DNA from: Opitutia bacterium
GTDB lineage: Bacteria; Verrucomicrobiota; Verrucomicrobiia; Opitutales; Coraliomargaritaceae
Direction: 5' to 3'
DNA: 46,163 bases
Assembly: GCA_029248665.1 (NCBI GenBank)
Contig: JAQWIW010000033.1
Span: 1 to 46,163 of the forward strand
In this document: positions 37,390 to 46,163 of the stretch, piece by piece
How the letters are laid out: each line of letters starts with the position of its first letter
How positions within the stretch are numbered: position 1 is the first letter of the stretch
Notes under the pieces: model-generated
The model's input: the letters and a program-made list of their open reading frames with translations, nothing else
The model's database searches: none
Told to the model about the DNA's origin: nothing
Position numbers and translations under genes: made by a program

Positions 37390-38991
37390 GTGAAATCTAC
37401 AAACATCAATCAGTCAAAAATAAGAAAACATTCTAGAACATCGTTCTACTTGTTCATCTTATGCTTTGTTTTTGCTACACCATGTCAGGCTATTATTCTT
37501 TATAGCGGAGACAATAATGCCAATTTAACCGCCCCTGACACTGCTCGAGAAGCTGTTTTTAATTCTGTCGCAAAAATATCACTTGCAAATGGTTCTAGTA
37601 TTGTAGGTTCAGCCGTACATATTAAAGACAAGTATCTGCTTACTGCAGGACATGTACTCTACAAAGATGTTACACCCAGGCGAACTCATATCACCTTCGA
37701 TGGCATCACCTATTGGGCTATTGATCTCAATTTCTTACCCATTCAAATAGGAACAGCTGACTTAGTTTTATTCAAACTCGTTCAAAATCCAAACCTTACC
37801 GAGACTCCATTATACAGTTCAACCAATGAGAACTTCAAAACCGGGACCTTAGTTGGCTGGGGCTTTGGAAGAGACCCTAACCAAGCAGATGAAACAGCTC
37901 TTAATCGCACCTGGAATTGGGGTGATAGCTCAACTATTGTCAAACGCTGGGGTACTAATCGGATTGAAAATACTGGAAACACAATTTTACCCTACAGCTA
38001 CTTCTTTACTCGTTTAAATTCTAATCAAGGTAGCAATGAAGCCGCATTTGCTTACTATGATTCTGGCTCAGGATTTTTTGTATCCAATTCAGATACTTGG
38101 CAACTTGCAGGCATCTCCACCGCAGTTTCTACTTCCGAAAGTTCAACCTTTGCCCAATTCAGTGGAAGCCAAGATGCCAATTACTTTGTCCGCATCTCCC
38201 AATACCGACAAACCATTTTAAACAACATACCTGACACTTCCACCTACTCAGGCTGGGCGATTGACCAAAGCCTATATGGGACAGATGCAGAAACCACTGC
38301 TGATCCAGATGCAGATGGACTAGACAACCAAACTGAATTCAATTTAGGCACAAATCCTAATCTTTCAGATACGGATAGCGATGGCCTTTCAGATGGCGAA
38401 GAGAGCAATACCTACAGCACCGATCCCCTTGATGCCGATAGCGATGACGATGGCCTTTCTGATGGTGAGGAGATCAATACCTACAATTCCGACCCCTTTG
38501 ATACCGATAGCGATAATGACGGCCTCACTGATGGCGACGAAGTCAATACCTACGGTACCGATCCAAGCGATAGTGACAGCGATGATGACAGTCTTACAGA
38601 TAGTGCTGAAATCAATACCCATAATACCGACCCTAATGACGCTGACAGCGATGATGACGGCCTCACCGATAGTGCTGAAATCAATACCCACCAAAGTGAT
38701 CCAAACAATGCGGATACTTCCAATGATGGCTTAAGCGACAAAGCACTCGTAGATTATGGACTCGATCCAAATGCGGATCACACCCTTTTATATAATGCAA
38801 TCGCCCAAAGTATTGCTGATTTGAGAGCAGGTTCCACCTTAATTCAGGTCATCGATAATCAAGCCATTATTACACTCAATTTAGAAGCCAGCGATGATTT
38901 ACAATCTTGGACAGAGACCGGCGACACCGCCACTTTACAAGTCCCCGCAAGCAATGATAGCCAATTCTACCGCTTCAAACTCAGCGACTAA
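37390..38991 (+). CDS. secreted trypsin-like protease with calcium-binding repeats
   Basis: A 533-residue exported protein. A signal peptide ends near residue 34 (TPCQA). Residues 45-275 form a trypsin-like domain with His88 in LTAGHVL, Asp124 in TADLVLF, and Ser225 in YYDSGSG. The glycine before DSG in the standard GDSGG motif is Tyr223, so the oxyanion hole is unusual. Residues about 285-445 are DxDxDG thrombospondin-type-3-like repeats of about 23 residues. The C-terminal about 65 residues form a W...FYRFK module shared with the protein at 42634-44253. Start is GTG at 37390, preceded by AAAAGG. The last gene before tRNA-Pro. Confidence 0.8.
   Translation: MKSTNINQSKIRKHSRTSFYLFILCFVFATPCQAIILYSGDNNANLTAPDTAREAVFNSVAKISLANGSSIVGSAVHIKDKYLLTAGHVLYKDVTPRRTHITFDGITYWAIDLNFLPIQIGTADLVLFKLVQNPNLTETPLYSSTNENFKTGTLVGWGFGRDPNQADETALNRTWNWGDSSTIVKRWGTNRIENTGNTILPYSYFFTRLNSNQGSNEAAFAYYDSGSGFFVSNSDTWQLAGISTAVSTSESSTFAQFSGSQDANYFVRISQYRQTILNNIPDTSTYSGWAIDQSLYGTDAETTADPDADGLDNQTEFNLGTNPNLSDTDSDGLSDGEESNTYSTDPLDADSDDDGLSDGEEINTYNSDPFDTDSDNDGLTDGDEVNTYGTDPSDSDSDDDSLTDSAEINTHNTDPNDADSDDDGLTDSAEINTHQSDPNNADTSNDGLSDKALVDYGLDPNADHTLLYNAIAQSIADLRAGSTLIQVIDNQAIITLNLEASDDLQSWTETGDTATLQVPASNDSQFYRFKLSD
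38368..38730 (+). repeat. 69-bp imperfect tandem repeats (calcium-binding repeat coding)
   Basis: Within the protease gene about five units of 69 bp encode 23 residues each, of the form D-S-D-x-D-G-L-x-D-x-x-E-x-N-T-x-x-x-D-P. The units differ at several bases but keep the GATAGCGATGACGATGGCCT core. This pattern can expand or contract by recombination. Confidence 0.8.
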
Positions 38992-39078: not shown

Positions 39079-39157
<79 letters not shown>

Positions 39158-39215
39158 TGCCCCATCCCAATACTTTAAAGGGATAGATGGGAATTAAGGT
39201 TTCTAATTAAACCCC

Positions 39216-39277: not shown

Positions 39278-40564
39278 ATGAAATATGGTGAAGCAAAAGA
39301 ATATCCTAAGAAATCTGGAATAAGATATAGGTTAAGATTAGATACAAATAATTATGAAGTTAGTGCTGGAGTTCGAATAACTGGTCGAAGGTATAGGTAC
39401 AGCACAGGATTAGATACTCTTGTAAAAGCTAAAGCTCATTGTTTAGAAGTTTCAAAAATGTCTAGAAATACCGATGAAGACTTTAGAGCTCACGACAAAG
39501 CAAGGAAAGTAGCATTTAACAAAATTGGATTAACCGCTACAAAAAGAGGGTTATCCACAAGGCAGATAGAAGAATTGTCCTCAAGAATAATTGATGAAAT
39601 AAAACCAGAGGTTGAATTGAAACTATTATCTGAGGTAATTGAAGACCTTAAAGCAGACAAAGATCTTTGTTATGAAAATAATGCAATCAAGATAAGATCT
39701 TTGAAGATGTTTAAGCATAATTATAATAATGTACTAAAAGAATTTGGCGACTGTTATGTAAGTAATATCACAAAACAGAAAATCACAGATTGGCTATCTA
39801 CCCTATCCTTTGCACCTAAGACAAAAGATATTCGCTATCATTGCTTAAGAGAGATATTAAATCACGCTATTGATAGAGGATTAATTAATGAAAATCCTTG
39901 TAAGCTTACCAAGGGCGAATACGCAAAATATATCGGTAAAACAATATGGAAAGAGCCCAAGATTCTATCTCTGAAGCAAGCTAAAATGATGTTAGAATTC
40001 GCAAGGGATAATCCTAAATACAATCTATTACCTTTCCTCGTGCTTGGATTGTATTGTGGGATAAGGCATGAAGAAATTCAAAAGATTGAATGGAAACAAA
40101 TTTGCTTAGTAGATGAAAAAGTAAGTATTACTGGTTACTACGCAAAAGGCAGAAAAAACAGAACAATAGATCTTCCTAAGTGTGCAGTAGAGTGGCTACG
40201 AAAAGCTCCACGCCCAAGTAAAGCCTTTTACAATATCATTGAAGGTGAGAAGAAATTGGGCCATTGGGTTTCAAAAAACCAATATACAAAACAACATTCA
40301 AAGAATTGGACAAAATTTTGGCGTGATTGCTTAAAAGCAAATGATTTTCCTTATGTAAGATGGGGAGATAATTATGAAAATGCTTTAAGGCATTCCTTCT
40401 CAAGTTACTATCATACCTATTCTGGTTATAACACACAAGCAACCATCAATATTCTTGGACATGATCCAAAAAATAGTAATCTCTTATTCGAACACTACAA
40501 AGCTATTACCAGTAAATCAGATGCAAAAGAGTACTTTGAAATATATCCATTTAAAGAGCCGTAA
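39278..40564 (+). CDS. tyrosine recombinase/integrase
   Basis: A 428-residue site-specific recombinase, the likely integration enzyme of an element in tRNA-Pro. The catalytic domain shows Arg263 in YCGIRHEEI, Lys290 in YAKGRKNRT, Arg371 in ENALRHSF, His395 in ILGHD and the nucleophile Tyr407 in LLFEHY. The first histidine of the usual HxLRH box is Asn368, a change I associate with verrucomicrobial integrases. A core-binding SAM-like domain lies around residues 115-215 and an arm-binding region precedes it. It points away from the tRNA. The region looks more AT-rich than the backbone genes. Confidence 0.92.
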   Translation: MKYGEAKEYPKKSGIRYRLRLDTNNYEVSAGVRITGRRYRYSTGLDTLVKAKAHCLEVSKMSRNTDEDFRAHDKARKVAFNKIGLTATKRGLSTRQIEELSSRIIDEIKPEVELKLLSEVIEDLKADKDLCYENNAIKIRSLKMFKHNYNNVLKEFGDCYVSNITKQKITDWLSTLSFAPKTKDIRYHCLREILNHAIDRGLINENPCKLTKGEYAKYIGKTIWKEPKILSLKQAKMMLEFARDNPKYNLLPFLVLGLYCGIRHEEIQKIEWKQICLVDEKVSITGYYAKGRKNRTIDLPKCAVEWLRKAPRPSKAFYNIIEGEKKLGHWVSKNQYTKQHSKNWTKFWRDCLKANDFPYVRWGDNYENALRHSFSSYYHTYSGYNTQATINILGHDPKNSNLLFEHYKAITSKSDAKEYFEIYPFKEP

Positions 40565-40609: not shown

Positions 40610-40879
40610 TTAACCAATTATTCCTAAATCACGGAGATTTTCTTGAGTAATGCATCTAGCATTTCTCTCATCTGTTGTTCTGACTAATCCATTAGGACTT
40701 TGACACATTTGGTAGACTTGTTTTGGATGCTTCCCAGTAAGTACCCCTACCTCTTTGATGGTTAAGTTACGGCTAGTTTCTTTGATTATTCTTCTTAGTA
40801 TCAATTCCTCAAACATTGAACCAGCAACTTTAGAGACAACATTAAATTGCCCTTGAAACTGTATTTCTTTTTCACTCAT
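40610..40879 (-). CDS. excisionase-like helix-turn-helix protein
   Basis: A small 89-residue protein whose second half reads like a MerR/excisionase-type winged helix: LTIKEVGVLTGKHPKQVYQM as the helix-turn-helix, then a short hairpin (GLVRTTDERNARCI) and a final helix TQENLRDLG. The first 35 residues are specific to it. Its size, fold and location convergent with the recombinase suggest a recombination directionality factor or element repressor; which of these cannot be decided. A good promoter lies upstream on the same strand. Confidence 0.6.
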   Translation of the reverse strand: MSEKEIQFQGQFNVVSKVAGSMFEELILRRIIKETSRNLTIKEVGVLTGKHPKQVYQMCQSPNGLVRTTDERNARCITQENLRDLGIIG

Positions 40880-40953: not shown

Positions 40954-41048
40954 TGCTTTATGTAACTTTTTTGAAAATACTTTACAGAACTAAATCTTTT
41001 TTACGGCAGAACTTTTTTTAAATTTTTTAAATTTTGGAATGCCTTGTT

Positions 41049-41786
41049 TTAATAAAAACACAAAATTTTCTGCTCGTTAAAAACATGATTGATCGCCCAG
41101 TCTAATTGATGAAGCTTGTAGATTGATCTGCATTTTCTACTGGGAAGATTATCCCTATCCCAAAGGTTCGTTAACCCCAGACTCTTTGTATGCCATTCAT
41201 TCCTGTAAGCTTTTGTTCGAACACTGGAATCATTCTTCGTTAGTTTGGTCATGTAGGTAAACCACTTACAAACTTGGAAATAATCTTTGGATAATTCTAC
41301 CAGAATTTCTTCTTTGTCATATTCATAGCCCACGCTTGCTTGGTAGTCTTTGAGTATCTTTTGCCATTTGTTTCTTAAAAGCTTTCTGTAGGTCAATATA
41401 GGGCGATTTTTGGGCAAAATAAGAAAGGCATGAAGGTGCAGATTCTTGTTATTCCTATCATTTTCAGTTATGAAGATTCCTTTAACTTTTAAATGCTCAT
41501 TCAAGTACCTTGTTAGTCTTTTTACAGCGTTCTCGTAGTTAGGAACAAATGATCCGAAATTCGTTTTGAATGTACTTTTACATAAGTGAAAATCCTTATC
41601 TTTGTACTCGTTGTAAGCTCTCGTTAATTTATAATACCAATCAGTTTTCTGTTTCAGTAATCTTTCTAATTCTGGCTTTTGTATCTTCTTTAGGTCTCCA
41701 TAATTAACTAATGGTTTATTCAAGTTCTTATATAGATAATATTCTAATGGATCTTCGTATTCTTTTAATTCTTTAGTAGTAGGCAT
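41049..41786 (-). CDS. putative HUH-endonuclease replication initiator (Rep-like)
   Basis: A 245-residue protein not recognised as a named family, but with the two signatures of rolling-circle initiators. These are an HUH motif in NLHLHAFLIL (His117, His119) between hydrophobic residues, and a YxxK motif in WFTYMTKL (Tyr178, Lys181) about 60 residues later. HUH proteins nick one DNA strand through a tyrosine-DNA bond to start replication or transfer. No helicase or relaxase C-terminal domain is present. Its place between the excisionase-like gene and a repeat-rich intergenic region suggests an element replication protein; a relaxase or transposase relative is possible. Confidence 0.6.
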   Translation of the reverse strand: MPTTKELKEYEDPLEYYLYKNLNKPLVNYGDLKKIQKPELERLLKQKTDWYYKLTRAYNEYKDKDFHLCKSTFKTNFGSFVPNYENAVKRLTRYLNEHLKVKGIFITENDRNNKNLHLHAFLILPKNRPILTYRKLLRNKWQKILKDYQASVGYEYDKEEILVELSKDYFQVCKWFTYMTKLTKNDSSVRTKAYRNEWHTKSLGLTNLWDRDNLPSRKCRSIYKLHQLDWAINHVFNEQKILCFY

Positions 41787-41814
41787 AGCTTTATCTAAAA
41801 GGCTTTACACATGG

Positions 41815-41855
41815 TTGGCATATATTCTTGAAATATATTAGTTTCAGAGTGCCAA
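41815..41855. repeat. nested inverted repeats upstream of the Rep-like gene
   Basis: TTGGCA (41815-41820) pairs with TGCCAA (41850-41855). Inside, TGAAA (41829-41833) pairs with TTTCA (41842-41846). An overlapping alternative dyad is ATATATT (41820-41826) with AATATAT (41832-41838). This cluster lies 29 bp upstream of the Rep-like start and could be a Rep nicking origin or an operator. Confidence 0.45.
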
Positions 41856-41877
41856 AATTCTAAAAAAACTTTCATTG

Positions 41878-41922
41878 CAAATTACAAATTGCCTCCAAAC
41901 CCTCATGAAATAAGGTAATTTG
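41878..41922. repeat. 8-bp inverted repeat with long loop
   Basis: CAAATTAC at 41878-41885 is exactly complementary to GTAATTTG at 41915-41922, with 29 nt between. It lies in the middle of the intergenic region between the Rep-like gene and the 203-residue gene. Its role is unknown; it may be part of an origin. Confidence 0.35.
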
Positions 41923-41967
41923 AAACAGAAAAAAGTTTGTGATTATTTTAGAGAGCTAACTGGGAGT

Positions 41968-41996
41968 GTTTATAAATCATTCTAGATTTTATAAAC
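41968..41996. repeat. 9-bp perfect inverted repeat before the 203-residue gene
   Basis: GTTTATAAA at 41968-41976 and TTTATAAAC at 41988-41996 flank an 11-nt spacer. An AAGGAG-like sequence follows at about 42001, but the annotated ATG is over 30 nt further on. The dyad is a good operator or stem-loop candidate. Confidence 0.45.
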
Positions 41997-42038
41997 AAAA
42001 AAGGAGATCTGCCACAGACTTTTAGTGTAAATAATTAT

Positions 42039-42650
42039 ATGTCTGGATATAATTATGAAGCACGAAGATTAATATCAGCATTGGGGTTTAAGCCAGAGCA
42101 TCATAAAGATCTTATAGATAGTTTAGAATTCGCTTATGAGCTAGAAGATGAACAGAATAGACCCAAAGTTAAATTCACGAAGTTAGATAGCTTAACAAAT
42201 GAATTTTTTGATTCGTTATACGAACCTTTGTCTAAATGTTTTGAATTAGAGTTCTGGAACAGTTACTACGAATACGGAGATGAAGTATATGACTATGATC
42301 TTCTGGTATGCTTTAACAAAAAGTATGGTCTTCAGTTGAGATTCGAAGAGGATCCAGACGAGATAATCCTGGAACTTATCTACCGATATGCAGACAAGGA
42401 GATTCGCCCCAAAGTTGGCTTCAAAGATACAATGCTAAAGTTAGAGCAGTGTTTGAGGCAGACAGAAGTTAAAAGCATCAAGCTAGAGGTCATGGCTATA
42501 TCTTGTCACAGAAGACTGCCCAGGAGGTGGCACACAGAAAGAAACAAGGATACTTTATCCAATAGTGATCTACGAGCTATCTACAAGGAACTGGGATTTG
42601 AAGAATGGGGCAGTGCGATGACCAAGGATATTTCTATTCCGCCATCTTAA
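42039..42650 (+). CDS. acidic protein of unknown function in the element
   Basis: A 203-residue soluble protein I do not recognise. It is rich in Glu, Asp, Tyr and Leu, with stretches such as WNSYYEYGDEVYDYDLLVCF and LQLRFEEDPDEIILELIYRY that look alternately helical and strand-like. A basic patch (SCHRRLPRRWHTERNKD) follows near residues 155-171. No signal peptide or membrane segment. Start ATG 42039; an AAGGAGAT sequence lies about 30 nt upstream, too far for normal initiation. Its 3' end overlaps the convergent secreted-protein gene by 17 bp. Position between a Rep-like gene and possible cargo suggests an accessory gene of the element. Confidence 0.7.
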   Translation: MSGYNYEARRLISALGFKPEHHKDLIDSLEFAYELEDEQNRPKVKFTKLDSLTNEFFDSLYEPLSKCFELEFWNSYYEYGDEVYDYDLLVCFNKKYGLQLRFEEDPDEIILELIYRYADKEIRPKVGFKDTMLKLEQCLRQTEVKSIKLEVMAISCHRRLPRRWHTERNKDTLSNSDLRAIYKELGFEEWGSAMTKDISIPPS

Positions 42651-44253
42651 AACTGAAGAACTTGGTATCTGTATCTGCTGGGATCGTCATAGTGGCTGGA
42701 TCACCCTTATCTTCCCATGTTTGAAGATCCGAACTTTCTTCCATCTGTAACTGCACTGTAGCTTGGTTTCCAGTCACCTCTATCATAGTTGAGCCTGGGC
42801 GGAGGTCTTGGACACTCTGGCTGATTACATTTTTTAGATTCGTATAATCTACAGTAGGATCAAATCCTGCATTAACTACTTCTCCATCTTTTAATCCGTC
42901 ACCAGATGTATCAGCTATGTTTGGATCAGTATTATAAGTTACTTCTTGGGAGTCATCTAATCCATCTGAATCAGTATCCGCTAAGTTCGGATTTGTCCCA
43001 TTAGCTATCTCAACATTATCCAAAATTGTGTCTCCATCACTATCTTCGTTGTTTGGATCTGTGCCAGTATCATTTGGAGAAATATAAATGCCAGTATTCG
43101 TTTCATGGATATTGGGCAATCCATCTCTATCTTTATCGTTTATGCTTTTTACTCTAACTTCTAGGCCCTGTGTAGTATTAATAGGGTAAGCTATCCATTC
43201 TCCATCTGGCGACATTTCTATTATCCCACCAAAAAAATGAGAATTTTCATAATTGTTATTAGATATCTCAATAAATTCAACAATTGTATTATTAGGAACC
43301 CAACTATCTGAAACTAAGGTATAAGTTGTAAGACTTCCTTCGTTTGAATCAGCTTCAGAAGTATTAATAGTAATAGTGTTACCTTCGGCTGAAAGTGCCA
43401 TGTTCTTTGTTCTTCCCGCATACAATATTCCTTGCAATTGGTTTCCTAATCTAACCCATTCATTATTCAAATTTTCAAAAATGGTAATTTGGGAAGCGCC
43501 GTCAGAGTCGGGCCCTGCCGTTTCTAAAGCAATTACATTGCCAGATGAATTTATGTCCGCTGAACACTCGCCACCATAAAAATCTTCACCAGAAATTAAA
43601 GTTTGGCCAATTTGGGAAATTACACCTTCATCTAGTTTAAATATTTTCGTAACACCATCATCTGAAAGAATGAAACTCATTCCATCCGCGCTCATATTAA
43701 TGTTCATAGCGTTTCCATTTTGTTCTGCTGTAAATTCATGAACAACTTCCCATTCAAAATTATTTAATGAGTAAATTTTTGATAAGCCATCAAAATAACT
43801 TCCTACAAATAAAATGTCACCAGCATTATTAAGTATAGAATTATATCCTCCCTCTTGCAAATCTTGTCCATTTTTTTCCCAATAATTAGTTTCTTCATTA
43901 AAATCATAAATTTCAGTTTTATTAGCTCCCCATGAAGAGATTGCAATCCTATCTCCAGAATAGTTGAGAGAAATTGATTCACCTAAAACTTGACCATTAT
44001 AACTTCCTGTAATTGTCTGTCCAACTTGATTCCATAAACCGTTTACATCCTTAAAAATTCTTACTGAACCTATTGCACTCCCCTCGTCCCAGCTATATTC
44101 TCCTTCACTTTTATTTGAAATTGCTATAACCTTCCCGCTTTCTGAAAAGGAAATTCTAATCGGGGAAATTCTATCAAAATTAGGATAAATAATTGGGCCA
44201 ACTGTTCCCCAAACCAAATTATTTAAAAGTAAAAATAAATAAACGAATCTCAT
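42634..44253 (-). CDS. secreted propeller-like protein with calcium-binding repeats
   Basis: A 539-residue exported protein with a signal peptide (MRFVYLFLLLNNLVWG). Residues about 25-370 consist of repeated strands of the type ISFSESGKVIAIS, SLNYSGDRIAIS, NMSADGMSFILS and EMSPDGEWIAYP, resembling a beta-propeller built from WD40-like or FG-GAP-like blades. Residues 372-455 carry DxDxDG calcium-binding repeats. The last about 65 residues form a W...FFSFK module about half identical to that of the protease at 37390-38991. Ligand or function is unknown; a surface-exposed binding role is plausible. It lies within or next to the tRNA-Pro element. Confidence 0.75.
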   Translation of the reverse strand: MRFVYLFLLLNNLVWGTVGPIIYPNFDRISPIRISFSESGKVIAISNKSEGEYSWDEGSAIGSVRIFKDVNGLWNQVGQTITGSYNGQVLGESISLNYSGDRIAISSWGANKTEIYDFNEETNYWEKNGQDLQEGGYNSILNNAGDILFVGSYFDGLSKIYSLNNFEWEVVHEFTAEQNGNAMNINMSADGMSFILSDDGVTKIFKLDEGVISQIGQTLISGEDFYGGECSADINSSGNVIALETAGPDSDGASQITIFENLNNEWVRLGNQLQGILYAGRTKNMALSAEGNTITINTSEADSNEGSLTTYTLVSDSWVPNNTIVEFIEISNNNYENSHFFGGIIEMSPDGEWIAYPINTTQGLEVRVKSINDKDRDGLPNIHETNTGIYISPNDTGTDPNNEDSDGDTILDNVEIANGTNPNLADTDSDGLDDSQEVTYNTDPNIADTSGDGLKDGEVVNAGFDPTVDYTNLKNVISQSVQDLRPGSTMIEVTGNQATVQLQMEESSDLQTWEDKGDPATMTIPADTDTKFFSFKMAE

Positions 44254-44493
44254 ACTTTACAAATAAACTCAAATCCCAAAAACTAAAAGAAAAAACCACC
44301 AAACTTTGAAAGGACGCTCCCCCGAGTAGCTTCTGCGAAATCCACTGGGAGATATAGAAAACGGCCCTCCAACCTCTATGAAAATGAGCGATATAGATAA
44401 GTTAATTTAAACGGGGGGCTAAATTTGTTAATCATCCAGATAAAAATAATTTGCCTAATTACTTTAATATTATGAAATATAGCTAGCTAAGAA

Positions 44494-45036
44494 ATGCGCA
44501 CTTTAAAAAAGAAATTACTCTACATAATTATACCATTAATACTTCTTTCTTTAGTATATATAAGTGCTGAAAGAATGCTTATAAGCAAAATTAAAAACGA
44601 CATAGAGTCATCATTTGGTAATGACTACGCTGTAATAGCCTTACATGTAGCTGGGGAAAACTCGCAAAAACCATCTCTCTGGCGTATGCTAAAGAAGGCC
44701 ATGATATATGAGTTAAACATTAATGGAGAGTATACTCCAACTGGAAGTGGCGGTTACACAGGGAAAAAACATCATCTCGCTATTCTAATTACAAATAATC
44801 AAGAAATTACATTCGGCGAATGGTCCTTCCGTAATTGGAGTTTAATTTTAAGTGATTATTCCTCCTCTTGGGACATAATTGAGAATTTATCTGAGTCCGA
44901 TCAAGAATTATACAGCTATGAAAGAGAAGATCTAAACAAACGAGGTGGAATAAGTTATAAAGACCGAGTCCTTAATGATGATGAGATCTCATTCTATTAT
45001 AGAAGCACCGAAGCTGAATTTCTTCCTAAAGAATAA
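44494..45036 (+). CDS. single-pass membrane protein of unknown function
   Basis: A 180-residue protein with a charged N-terminus (MRTLKKK), one hydrophobic segment (residues 8-23, LLYIIIPLILLSLVYI), then a soluble domain expected outside the cytoplasm. Segments such as GEYTPTGSGGYTGKKHH and ITFGEWSFRNWSLILSDY suggest beta structure. The C-terminus is acidic and charged. I do not recognise the family. It starts at ATG 44494 after a 240-bp intergenic stretch, in an AT-rich context, and is convergent with hsdR. Confidence 0.6.
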   Translation: MRTLKKKLLYIIIPLILLSLVYISAERMLISKIKNDIESSFGNDYAVIALHVAGENSQKPSLWRMLKKAMIYELNINGEYTPTGSGGYTGKKHHLAILITNNQEITFGEWSFRNWSLILSDYSSSWDIIENLSESDQELYSYEREDLNKRGGISYKDRVLNDDEISFYYRSTEAEFLPKE

Positions 45037-45077: not shown

Positions 45078-46163
45078 TTAGGCTGCCCACTGATCTGCAA
45101 GCGTCTCAGCCTGTTCTATCACCCGAGTGATTGCCGCTTCTTGACCTGCTGGCGGATAACGATAACTACGCAAAAGCTTTTTAATCAACAGACGCATTTT
45201 CGCTCTTACACTCTCCCGCTTCTGCCAATCAACCGTTGCGCTCTTTCTTAGCTGCTCTGTAAGAGCCGTGGCCAACTTCTTGAGTGTTTCATCTCCCATC
45301 GTCTCCAGTACTTCTGGGCGTTCAGCTAAGGCGTCATAAAATGCAATCTCATCGGGGCTTAGACCAAGGGCATCATCCCGCTGCATAGCATCTTGGAAAT
45401 CTTTGGCCATCTGGATGAGTTCTTCAATCACTTGAGCCGTTTCGATAGCCCTATTGTGATACCTTCTCAATGTTTCTTCTAAACGATCTCCATACTTCTT
45501 TTGCTGAACAACATTAGTTTTCGTTCGTGACTTGATACTGTCTCGAATCAACTTTTCTAATAAGTTCATCGCCAAATTTTTATGCGGCATGTTTCGAACA
45601 TCCTCTAGGAACTCTTCTGATAACAAGCCTATATTCGGTTTATCGATACCTGCTAGTTCAAAAATATCAGCGACCCCTTCTGAAACAACCGCATTATCTA
45701 AAATCGCCTTCAATGCACTGTTTCGTTCGGCATCAGTTAGTTTCTTATCCACCGATGTGGATTTCACAATCGCTGCCTTAACAGCACTGAAAAATGCTAT
45801 CTCCAGTTTGAGCGCCTTAGCTTCATCTAAAGTACCACATAAGGAACAAGCACGGGTCATTTGAGTCACGACATCAAGAAAACGTTTTTTGCCATCCTCT
45901 AATCCTAGGATATGATTGGCCGCAGGCACCAATAAGGTATGACCCCTCGTTTCAAAAGCTGAATAATCAAAACCATGAAATAACGCTCGGCAAATATCCA
46001 TTCGCTTGAGTAATTCCTCTAAAGCCTTCTGTGTATCGTGTGTTGGCTGACCCCGACCCTTTGAATCTGAATAAACTTTTAAAGCCGCCTTCAGATCATT
46101 ACCAATACCGATATAATCAACAACTAGTCCACCAGACTTATCCTTAAAGACACGATTAACCCG
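45078..46163 (-). CDS. hsdR: type I restriction enzyme R subunit, C-terminal part
   Basis: The frame is open to the right edge of the window, so the gene is truncated by the window and not by mutation; 361 C-terminal residues are visible. RVNRVFKDK near the edge followed by GGLVVDYIGIG matches the end of the helicase core (motif VI) of HsdR. The rest (for example GLSPDEIAFYDAL and RAKMRLLIKKLLRSYRYPP) matches the C-terminal helical domain that contacts the methyltransferase. HsdR translocates and cleaves unmodified DNA. hsdM and hsdS would be expected nearby, to the right. Confidence 0.92.
   Translation of the reverse strand, partial: RVNRVFKDKSGGLVVDYIGIGNDLKAALKVYSDSKGRGQPTHDTQKALEELLKRMDICRALFHGFDYSAFETRGHTLLVPAANHILGLEDGKKRFLDVVTQMTRACSLCGTLDEAKALKLEIAFFSAVKAAIVKSTSVDKKLTDAERNSALKAILDNAVVSEGVADIFELAGIDKPNIGLLSEEFLEDVRNMPHKNLAMNLLEKLIRDSIKSRTKTNVVQQKKYGDRLEETLRRYHNRAIETAQVIEELIQMAKDFQDAMQRDDALGLSPDEIAFYDALAERPEVLETMGDETLKKLATALTEQLRKSATVDWQKRESVRAKMRLLIKKLLRSYRYPPAGQEAAITRVIEQAETLADQWAA

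Follow-up and report, generated by a model that had tools for sequence, protein, structure and literature searches.

A probable HUH replication initiator of an isolated lineage in a tRNA-integrated element of marine Verrucomicrobiota

Within a 46,163-nucleotide stretch of DNA from an Opitutia bacterium (contig JAQWIW010000033.1, henceforth the window), an intact open reading frame on the minus strand (41049-41786) encodes a 245-residue protein. We consider this protein likely to be a divergent single-tyrosine HUH endonuclease that would start rolling-circle replication of an integrated plasmid, a small integrative element lodged at the 3' end of a tRNA-Pro gene. A HUH single-tyrosine Rep-type nuclease appears to be the best-supported reading of the open reading frame, Pfam, homologue, phage tblastn, alignment and structure comparisons taken together, and the protein most likely represents an orphan lineage of rolling-circle initiators in integrative elements. 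The first-pass annotation of this DNA, made from the letters alone, had suggested that the protein could found a new Rep branch; the lineage does prove isolated, but the kind of protein is already known, as is the kind of element, and what we describe is an odd new relative rather than a new system. That annotation also omitted the integrase, the tRNA attachment site and the partner open reading frame, which form the functional context of the gene.

The Rep-like protein and its affinity to known Reps

The key residues H117, H119, Y178 and K181 lie where the first-pass annotation had placed them. On the minus strand, the H117-L118-H119 codons of the HUH motif occupy 41430-41438, and the codon of Y178, the proposed nucleophile in a YxxK motif, occupies 41253-41255. 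A homologue from another genus of the same family (genome G039, contig C7) is 71% identical to the protein over its whole length and keeps all four residues; loss of His117, His119 and Tyr178 among homologues had been named as grounds for abandoning the HUH reading, and in this one homologue none of them is lost. The two genes differ at 51, 37 and 89 first, second and third codon positions, respectively, over 246 codons, and this excess of divergence at third positions indicates that the open reading frame is a genuine gene subject to purifying selection. The bare motif (H-hydrophobic-H, then YxxK within 100 residues) is weak evidence by itself, since it arises in 3.1% of the composition-matched shuffles of this Tyr- and Lys-rich protein. 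The extended signature E-x8-HxH-x5-P-x15-W, picked post hoc after alignment, occurs in 2 of 200,000 shuffles and matches invariant columns of microviral Reps.

Orthologues are rare. Two of the 43 genomes of the host family carry one, making two orthologues in all, and a search of 387 genomes across the phylum returned nothing but a 16-bit match containing a stop. Scans of IMG/VR with the protein and with the two-row alignment found no relative, GTDB contigs yielded none beyond the G039 contig already found, and phage and plasmid collections gave no match at a significant E-value for either orthologue. The full-length Rep co-occurs with its neighbour ORF203, both being confined to the same two genomes among those searched. 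The earlier description of an unfamiliar, separate Rep branch is borne out to this extent.

The single Pfam family reaching E ≤ 1 in both orthologues was PF23343 (REP_ORF2-G2P). It scored 16.2 bits (E = 0.013) against the 245-residue protein and 24.1 bits (E = 4.6e-5) against the G039 homologue, in which residues 72-146 align with profile positions 7-79 of 99, a span that includes the profile's HUH core. Both scores miss the curated cut-off of 27.8 bits, and we therefore do not assign the protein to PF23343; it probably works like a PF23343-type Rep. The first-pass remark that the protein fits no familiar family is only half right, as PF23343 is the closest profile, reached below its cut-off. 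PHROGs and NCBIfam held no match to the 245-residue protein, and a PDB sequence search gave no meaningful one. Weak PF23343 matches of about 200-230 residues in relatives were left out of the analysis because they may be RAYT-like transposases. Elsewhere in the Verrucomicrobiota, genome G061 has seven PF23343 matches, and its region C1:2900000-2918000 (L037) holds two apparent inovirus-like proviruses, which combine PF23343 Reps with small coat-like proteins and a Zot-like ATPase.

When 50,697 phage records were searched by tblastn with both orthologues, up to E-values of 5-10, five matches to four distinct records were obtained, all of them Microviridae replication initiators; the E-values (2-5 each) are individually non-significant, and no other kind of protein was among the matches. 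Most of these alignments have the HUH motif in register, with H117/H119 on HYH and E108 on the preceding conserved E. When the protein is aligned with 58 Rep domains drawn from microviruses in IMG/VR and from genomes of Verrucomicrobiota, E108, H117, H119 and W141 fall in invariant columns, W50 and T72 in nearly invariant ones. Across a set of 78 Rep domains, all 78 align an E with E108 (codon at 41463-41465, minus strand), a putative third metal ligand, and HxH with H117/H119. The charged N-terminal region of 100 residues, previously regarded as unfamiliar, is partly explained by this register: W50, T72 and R90 match a W, a T and an R found immediately before and after the first beta strand of other Reps. 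The profile-profile comparison that the first-pass annotation had recommended came out mixed. A two-row profile of the orthologues matched the 78 Rep domains in hhalign (E = 0.0028) with the HUH motif in register, beating 59 of 60 column shuffles, but found no match against seven verrucomicrobial PF23343 Reps; a profile built from 67 microviral Reps failed to tell the orthologue pair from shuffles.

Modelled by AlphaFold2 with the two orthologues as sole input, the protein gave a poor prediction (pLDDT 53.6) comprising a strand (66-75), a helix (82-99), two strands (102-109 and 116-125) and a further helix (130-152). Foldseek ranked SIRV1 Rep (2x3g) second for this model, with a probability of 0.97, and IS608 TnpA lower (0.69), among unrelated hits; matches in BFVD include several viral Reps. 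VIA-align was uninformative here, with M16 peptidases on top and SIRV1 Rep (Z 4.3) among unrelated rows. An input alignment containing HUH Reps, which partly impose the fold on the resulting model, raised the pLDDT of the core to 65-85, and the best 19 VIA-align rows for this Rep-guided model consisted entirely of HUH nucleases (Z 8.0-9.3, most of them superposing some 105 residues at 3 A), namely IS200/IS605 transposases and parvovirus NS1, followed by AAV Rep and SIRV1 Rep. In both models H117 and H119 sit on the third strand. Structure prediction, also recommended by the first-pass annotation, puts both histidines on a strand of the central sheet, and an HUH fold seems likely, the high Z scores coming from the Rep-guided model. 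In that model Y178 falls in a short strand within the C-terminal third, the expected tyrosine region, where pLDDT is below 60.

Y178 is a plausible nucleophile and, after the HUH motif, belongs to the sole conserved YxxK other than that of Y223. In the family alignment it lies outside the tyrosine column, and its placement is not fixed by the alignments; Y194 or Y169 may be the catalytic tyrosine instead. Of the proposed single-tyrosine HUH initiator, the HUH component is probably right, on the PF23343 match of the G039 homologue, the register with Reps and the matches to HUH structures, whereas the tyrosine is placed as Y178 by neither alignment nor model.

Two tRNA-integrated elements and their common cassette

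The Rep gene lies about 2 kb from a tRNA-Pro(GGG) gene (39081-39157, plus strand; ARAGORN, and 61.4 bits with Rfam tRNA), the apparent integration target. Over the 3' end of this gene lies a 32-bp attL core (39131-39162, plus strand), CAAGTTCAAATCTTGTCGGCCCGACCATGCCC, which recurs in the same genome on contig C13 as an identical 32-bp copy (30-61) and a near-copy (from 2794), both without the remainder of the tRNA. The tRNA is followed by a gene for a tyrosine recombinase (integrase) of 428 residues (39278-40564, plus strand; Pfam Phage_integrase 7.5e-9, PHROG integrase 2.8e-29) and then by one for an 89-residue protein (40610-40879, minus strand). The latter has no significant family match in Pfam, PHROGs or NCBIfam, and its position and sequence character suggest a small helix-turn-helix or excisionase-like protein. 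Beyond the Rep gene, a divergent intergenic region of 252 bp (41787-42038), candidate for the origin and promoters, leads to ORF203 (42039-42650, plus strand), a 203-residue protein with no family assigned, whose 70% identical homologue occupies the same place in G039.

The remaining genes are probable cargo: a 539-residue secreted protein with TSP3 repeats (42634-44253, minus strand; Pfam TSP3_bac 1.3e-7), a 180-residue protein with a hydrophobic N-terminal segment, an open reading frame of no Pfam family (44494-45036, plus strand), and an HsdR subunit of type I restriction, represented by its C-terminal part (45078-46163, minus strand; Pfam T1RH-like_C 3.8e-118). The HsdR frame is open to the end of the window, with TIGR00348 positions 637-672 matched where the contig stops, and a search of the same assembly found no further HsdR piece; the assembly therefore probably breaks inside the restriction genes. 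Before the tRNA-Pro, a protease-like gene (37390-38991) encodes a protein that, judged by eye, resembles the TSP3 protein in its terminal TSP3-like repeats and in its C-terminal tail, DLR.GST..I.V..N.A; repeats and tail together are perhaps a common sorting or surface domain.

Neither attR nor any right end of the element was found in the window contig. The far end of C13 carries a hydrolase gene, a relative of which comes immediately after tRNA-Pro in an element-free genome from the same genus, and on the strength of this gene and the att-core copies C13 probably flanks the window locus on its right. We take the window element to be a tRNA-integrated integrative element, with attL in the window and the matching copy on C13. 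On C13 itself (L020, 30-2825), a 2.7-kb stretch lies between the two att-core copies, each of which comes after the same right-end sequence, about TTACCTTAAGTAAAATAAGTnCCTA. It holds one gene, for a 701-residue secreted protein, and no integrase, and is possibly a non-autonomous cargo unit mobilised by the integrase of a neighbour. The same genome carries a second element on contig C5 (L021, 1100-3987), with an integrase 28% identical to that of the window, an HTH_17/Tn916-Xis-like gene and a chorismate synthase-like neighbour; a second Rep in that element was rejected, as no Rep match occurs there.

The G039 homologue resides in a 6.9-kb element, of which 2.35 kb read N, with perfect 39-bp direct repeats at both ends, 6.9 kb apart. 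The repeats correspond to the 5' half of a tRNA-Arg(CCG), and this element, too, is a tRNA-integrated integrative element flanked by direct repeats of part of its tRNA. The two elements have in common a 1.6-kb cassette (41047-42641; 72.7% nucleotide identity over 1610 columns) that runs from the Rep stop codon, through the 252-bp gap upstream of Rep, to the end of the divergent ORF203. Outside the cassette they share almost nothing beyond a 91-bp match where the next gene begins. The integrases are 22% identical, and tRNAs and cargo also differ between the two independently integrated elements. The short match (window 44228-44316, L003 12239-12324) is 70% identical, includes the near-perfect block CTTTCAAAGTTTGGTGGTTTTTTCT and lies at the starts of different secreted-protein cargo genes. 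Folding of the intergenic region (41787-42038) as single-stranded DNA gave a weak signal (z = -1.9 for the plus and -1.2 for the minus strand), and a search for an origin hairpin or iterons by folding and repeats found nothing prominent or common to both elements.

Proposed mechanism and alternative explanations

We propose that the integrase, perhaps together with the small helix-turn-helix protein, would excise the element as a circle, and that Rep would bind an origin most likely situated in the 252 bp that precede its own gene. A site formed by H117, H119 and E108 would coordinate a divalent metal, and one strand would be nicked by a tyrosine, probably Y178, that stays attached to the 5' end. 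Host helicase and polymerase would displace a single strand, and Rep would then religate the ends; copies of the element could re-integrate, or reach another cell by a route that is not visibly encoded. ORF203 may serve this replicon as an accessory protein or in copy control. The parts of this scheme for which the sequence speaks are the tRNA-adjacent integrase, the recurring att core and the cassette that is also present in an independently integrated element. Possible but doubtful, in our estimation, is a broader proposal in which the new HUH Rep lineage, ORF203 and the common origin region would make up a portable replication cassette that unrelated tyrosine integrases of marine Verrucomicrobiota exchange among themselves, and in which ORF203 would be required as a second factor for replication or transfer.

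Other activities could account for some of these observations. An HUH relaxase mobilising the element, by nicking an oriT and piloting the strand into a helper's mating pore as do Rep-like relaxases of some integrative elements, would fit the place of the protein in an integrated element and its lack of a helicase domain. The sole plasmid tblastn match was a MobQ relaxase, aligned along the HUH stretch (E = 0.5, with z of 10.8 for the 245-residue protein and 3.9 for its G039 homologue). We nonetheless hold a relaxase to be unlikely: the visible part of the element has no coupling protein or transfer gene, no relaxase family was matched in Pfam or NCBIfam, the G039 homologue has no plasmid match, and MobQ-type relaxases carry their tyrosine N-terminal to the HUH motif. 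For a Y1-type transposase or RAYT relative (IS200/IS605 fold), which would move or trim DNA and not initiate replication, speak the closest solved folds to the Rep-guided model, IS200/IS605 TnpA (Z 8.2-9.3), and a RAYT (4er8) among the Foldseek matches. The lead of TnpA may reflect how few ORF2/G2P-type Y1 Rep structures have been solved, Pfam gave no Y1_Tnp match at E ≤ 1 for either orthologue, the sequence matches are Reps with no transposase among them, and the conserved cassette accompanies different tyrosine integrases; we give a transposase a very slim chance.

The strongest sequence affinity of the protein, to Microviridae Reps and PF23343, would also suit a gene that replicates the remnant or a satellite of an ssDNA phage (microvirus or inovirus) instead of a plasmid, and the same phylum seems to harbour inovirus-like proviruses whose Reps match PF23343 (L037). 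Yet no capsid, pilot, coat or Zot-type gene was recognised across 39-46 kb and the rest of the element resembles host-type cargo, although the stretch of N in the G039 element could hide a phage gene; we consider a phage origin just as improbable as a transposase. Very unlikely, too, is that the protein is no HUH nuclease, its motif having arisen by chance in a DNA-binding protein of the element that is rich in lysine and tyrosine. The frequency of the bare motif among shuffles and the two negative profile tests, with the seven verrucomicrobial and the 67 microviral Reps, would allow this. Against it stand the PF23343 match of the G039 homologue, the register of E108, H117, H119 and W141 across Reps, the fact that every phage match is a Rep, and the matches of the two-orthologue model to HUH structures. 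The replicon reading is favoured over a relaxase or transposase on account of a clear PF23343 Rep in another genome of the same bacterial family (G008), whose neighbours are an HTH-like gene, a gene of integrase size and a tRNA-Tyr, and of the known integrated HUH replicons (PMC6668415).

Significance and comparison with known systems

If the replicon reading is true, an orphan branch is added to the HUH Reps, and small tRNA-integrated islands of streamlined marine Verrucomicrobiota bring along their own replication cassette, combinable with different integrases. It would also offer a testable answer to how islands with secreted proteins, and possibly restriction systems, replicate after excision.

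The closest relatives of the protein are the PF23343 Reps of microviruses, inoviruses and related replicons, with which it shares an HxH with a hydrophobic middle residue, an E nine residues before it, a conserved W after it and the order beta-alpha-beta-beta-alpha. It differs from them in scoring under the family cut-off, in having a tyrosine region that is not alignable and in having neither the RPHYH consensus nor the N-terminal VPCGxCxxC motif of gokushovirus-type Reps. All phage tblastn matches were to the VP4 initiators of Microviridae (gokushovirus type), with W, T, R, E, HxH and W in register. Unlike these, the protein belongs to a tRNA-integrated element with an integrase and with no phage structural genes recognised nearby, and goes unrecognised by a microvirus-only profile. 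Integrated HUH replicons without viral structural genes have already been described (Kazlauskas et al., 2019; PMC6668415), and like those integrated plasmids and mobile elements, the window element has its Rep in a site-specifically integrated element free of viral structural genes. The integrated pCRESS Reps of that study have a nuclease-helicase organisation, whereas here a protein of nuclease size stands alone with ORF203. In its border tRNA, tyrosine recombinase, variable cargo and aquatic bacterial host, the element resembles the tycheposons, tRNA-targeted integrase islands (PMC10872708), from which, as described there, it is set apart by carrying a Rep cassette.
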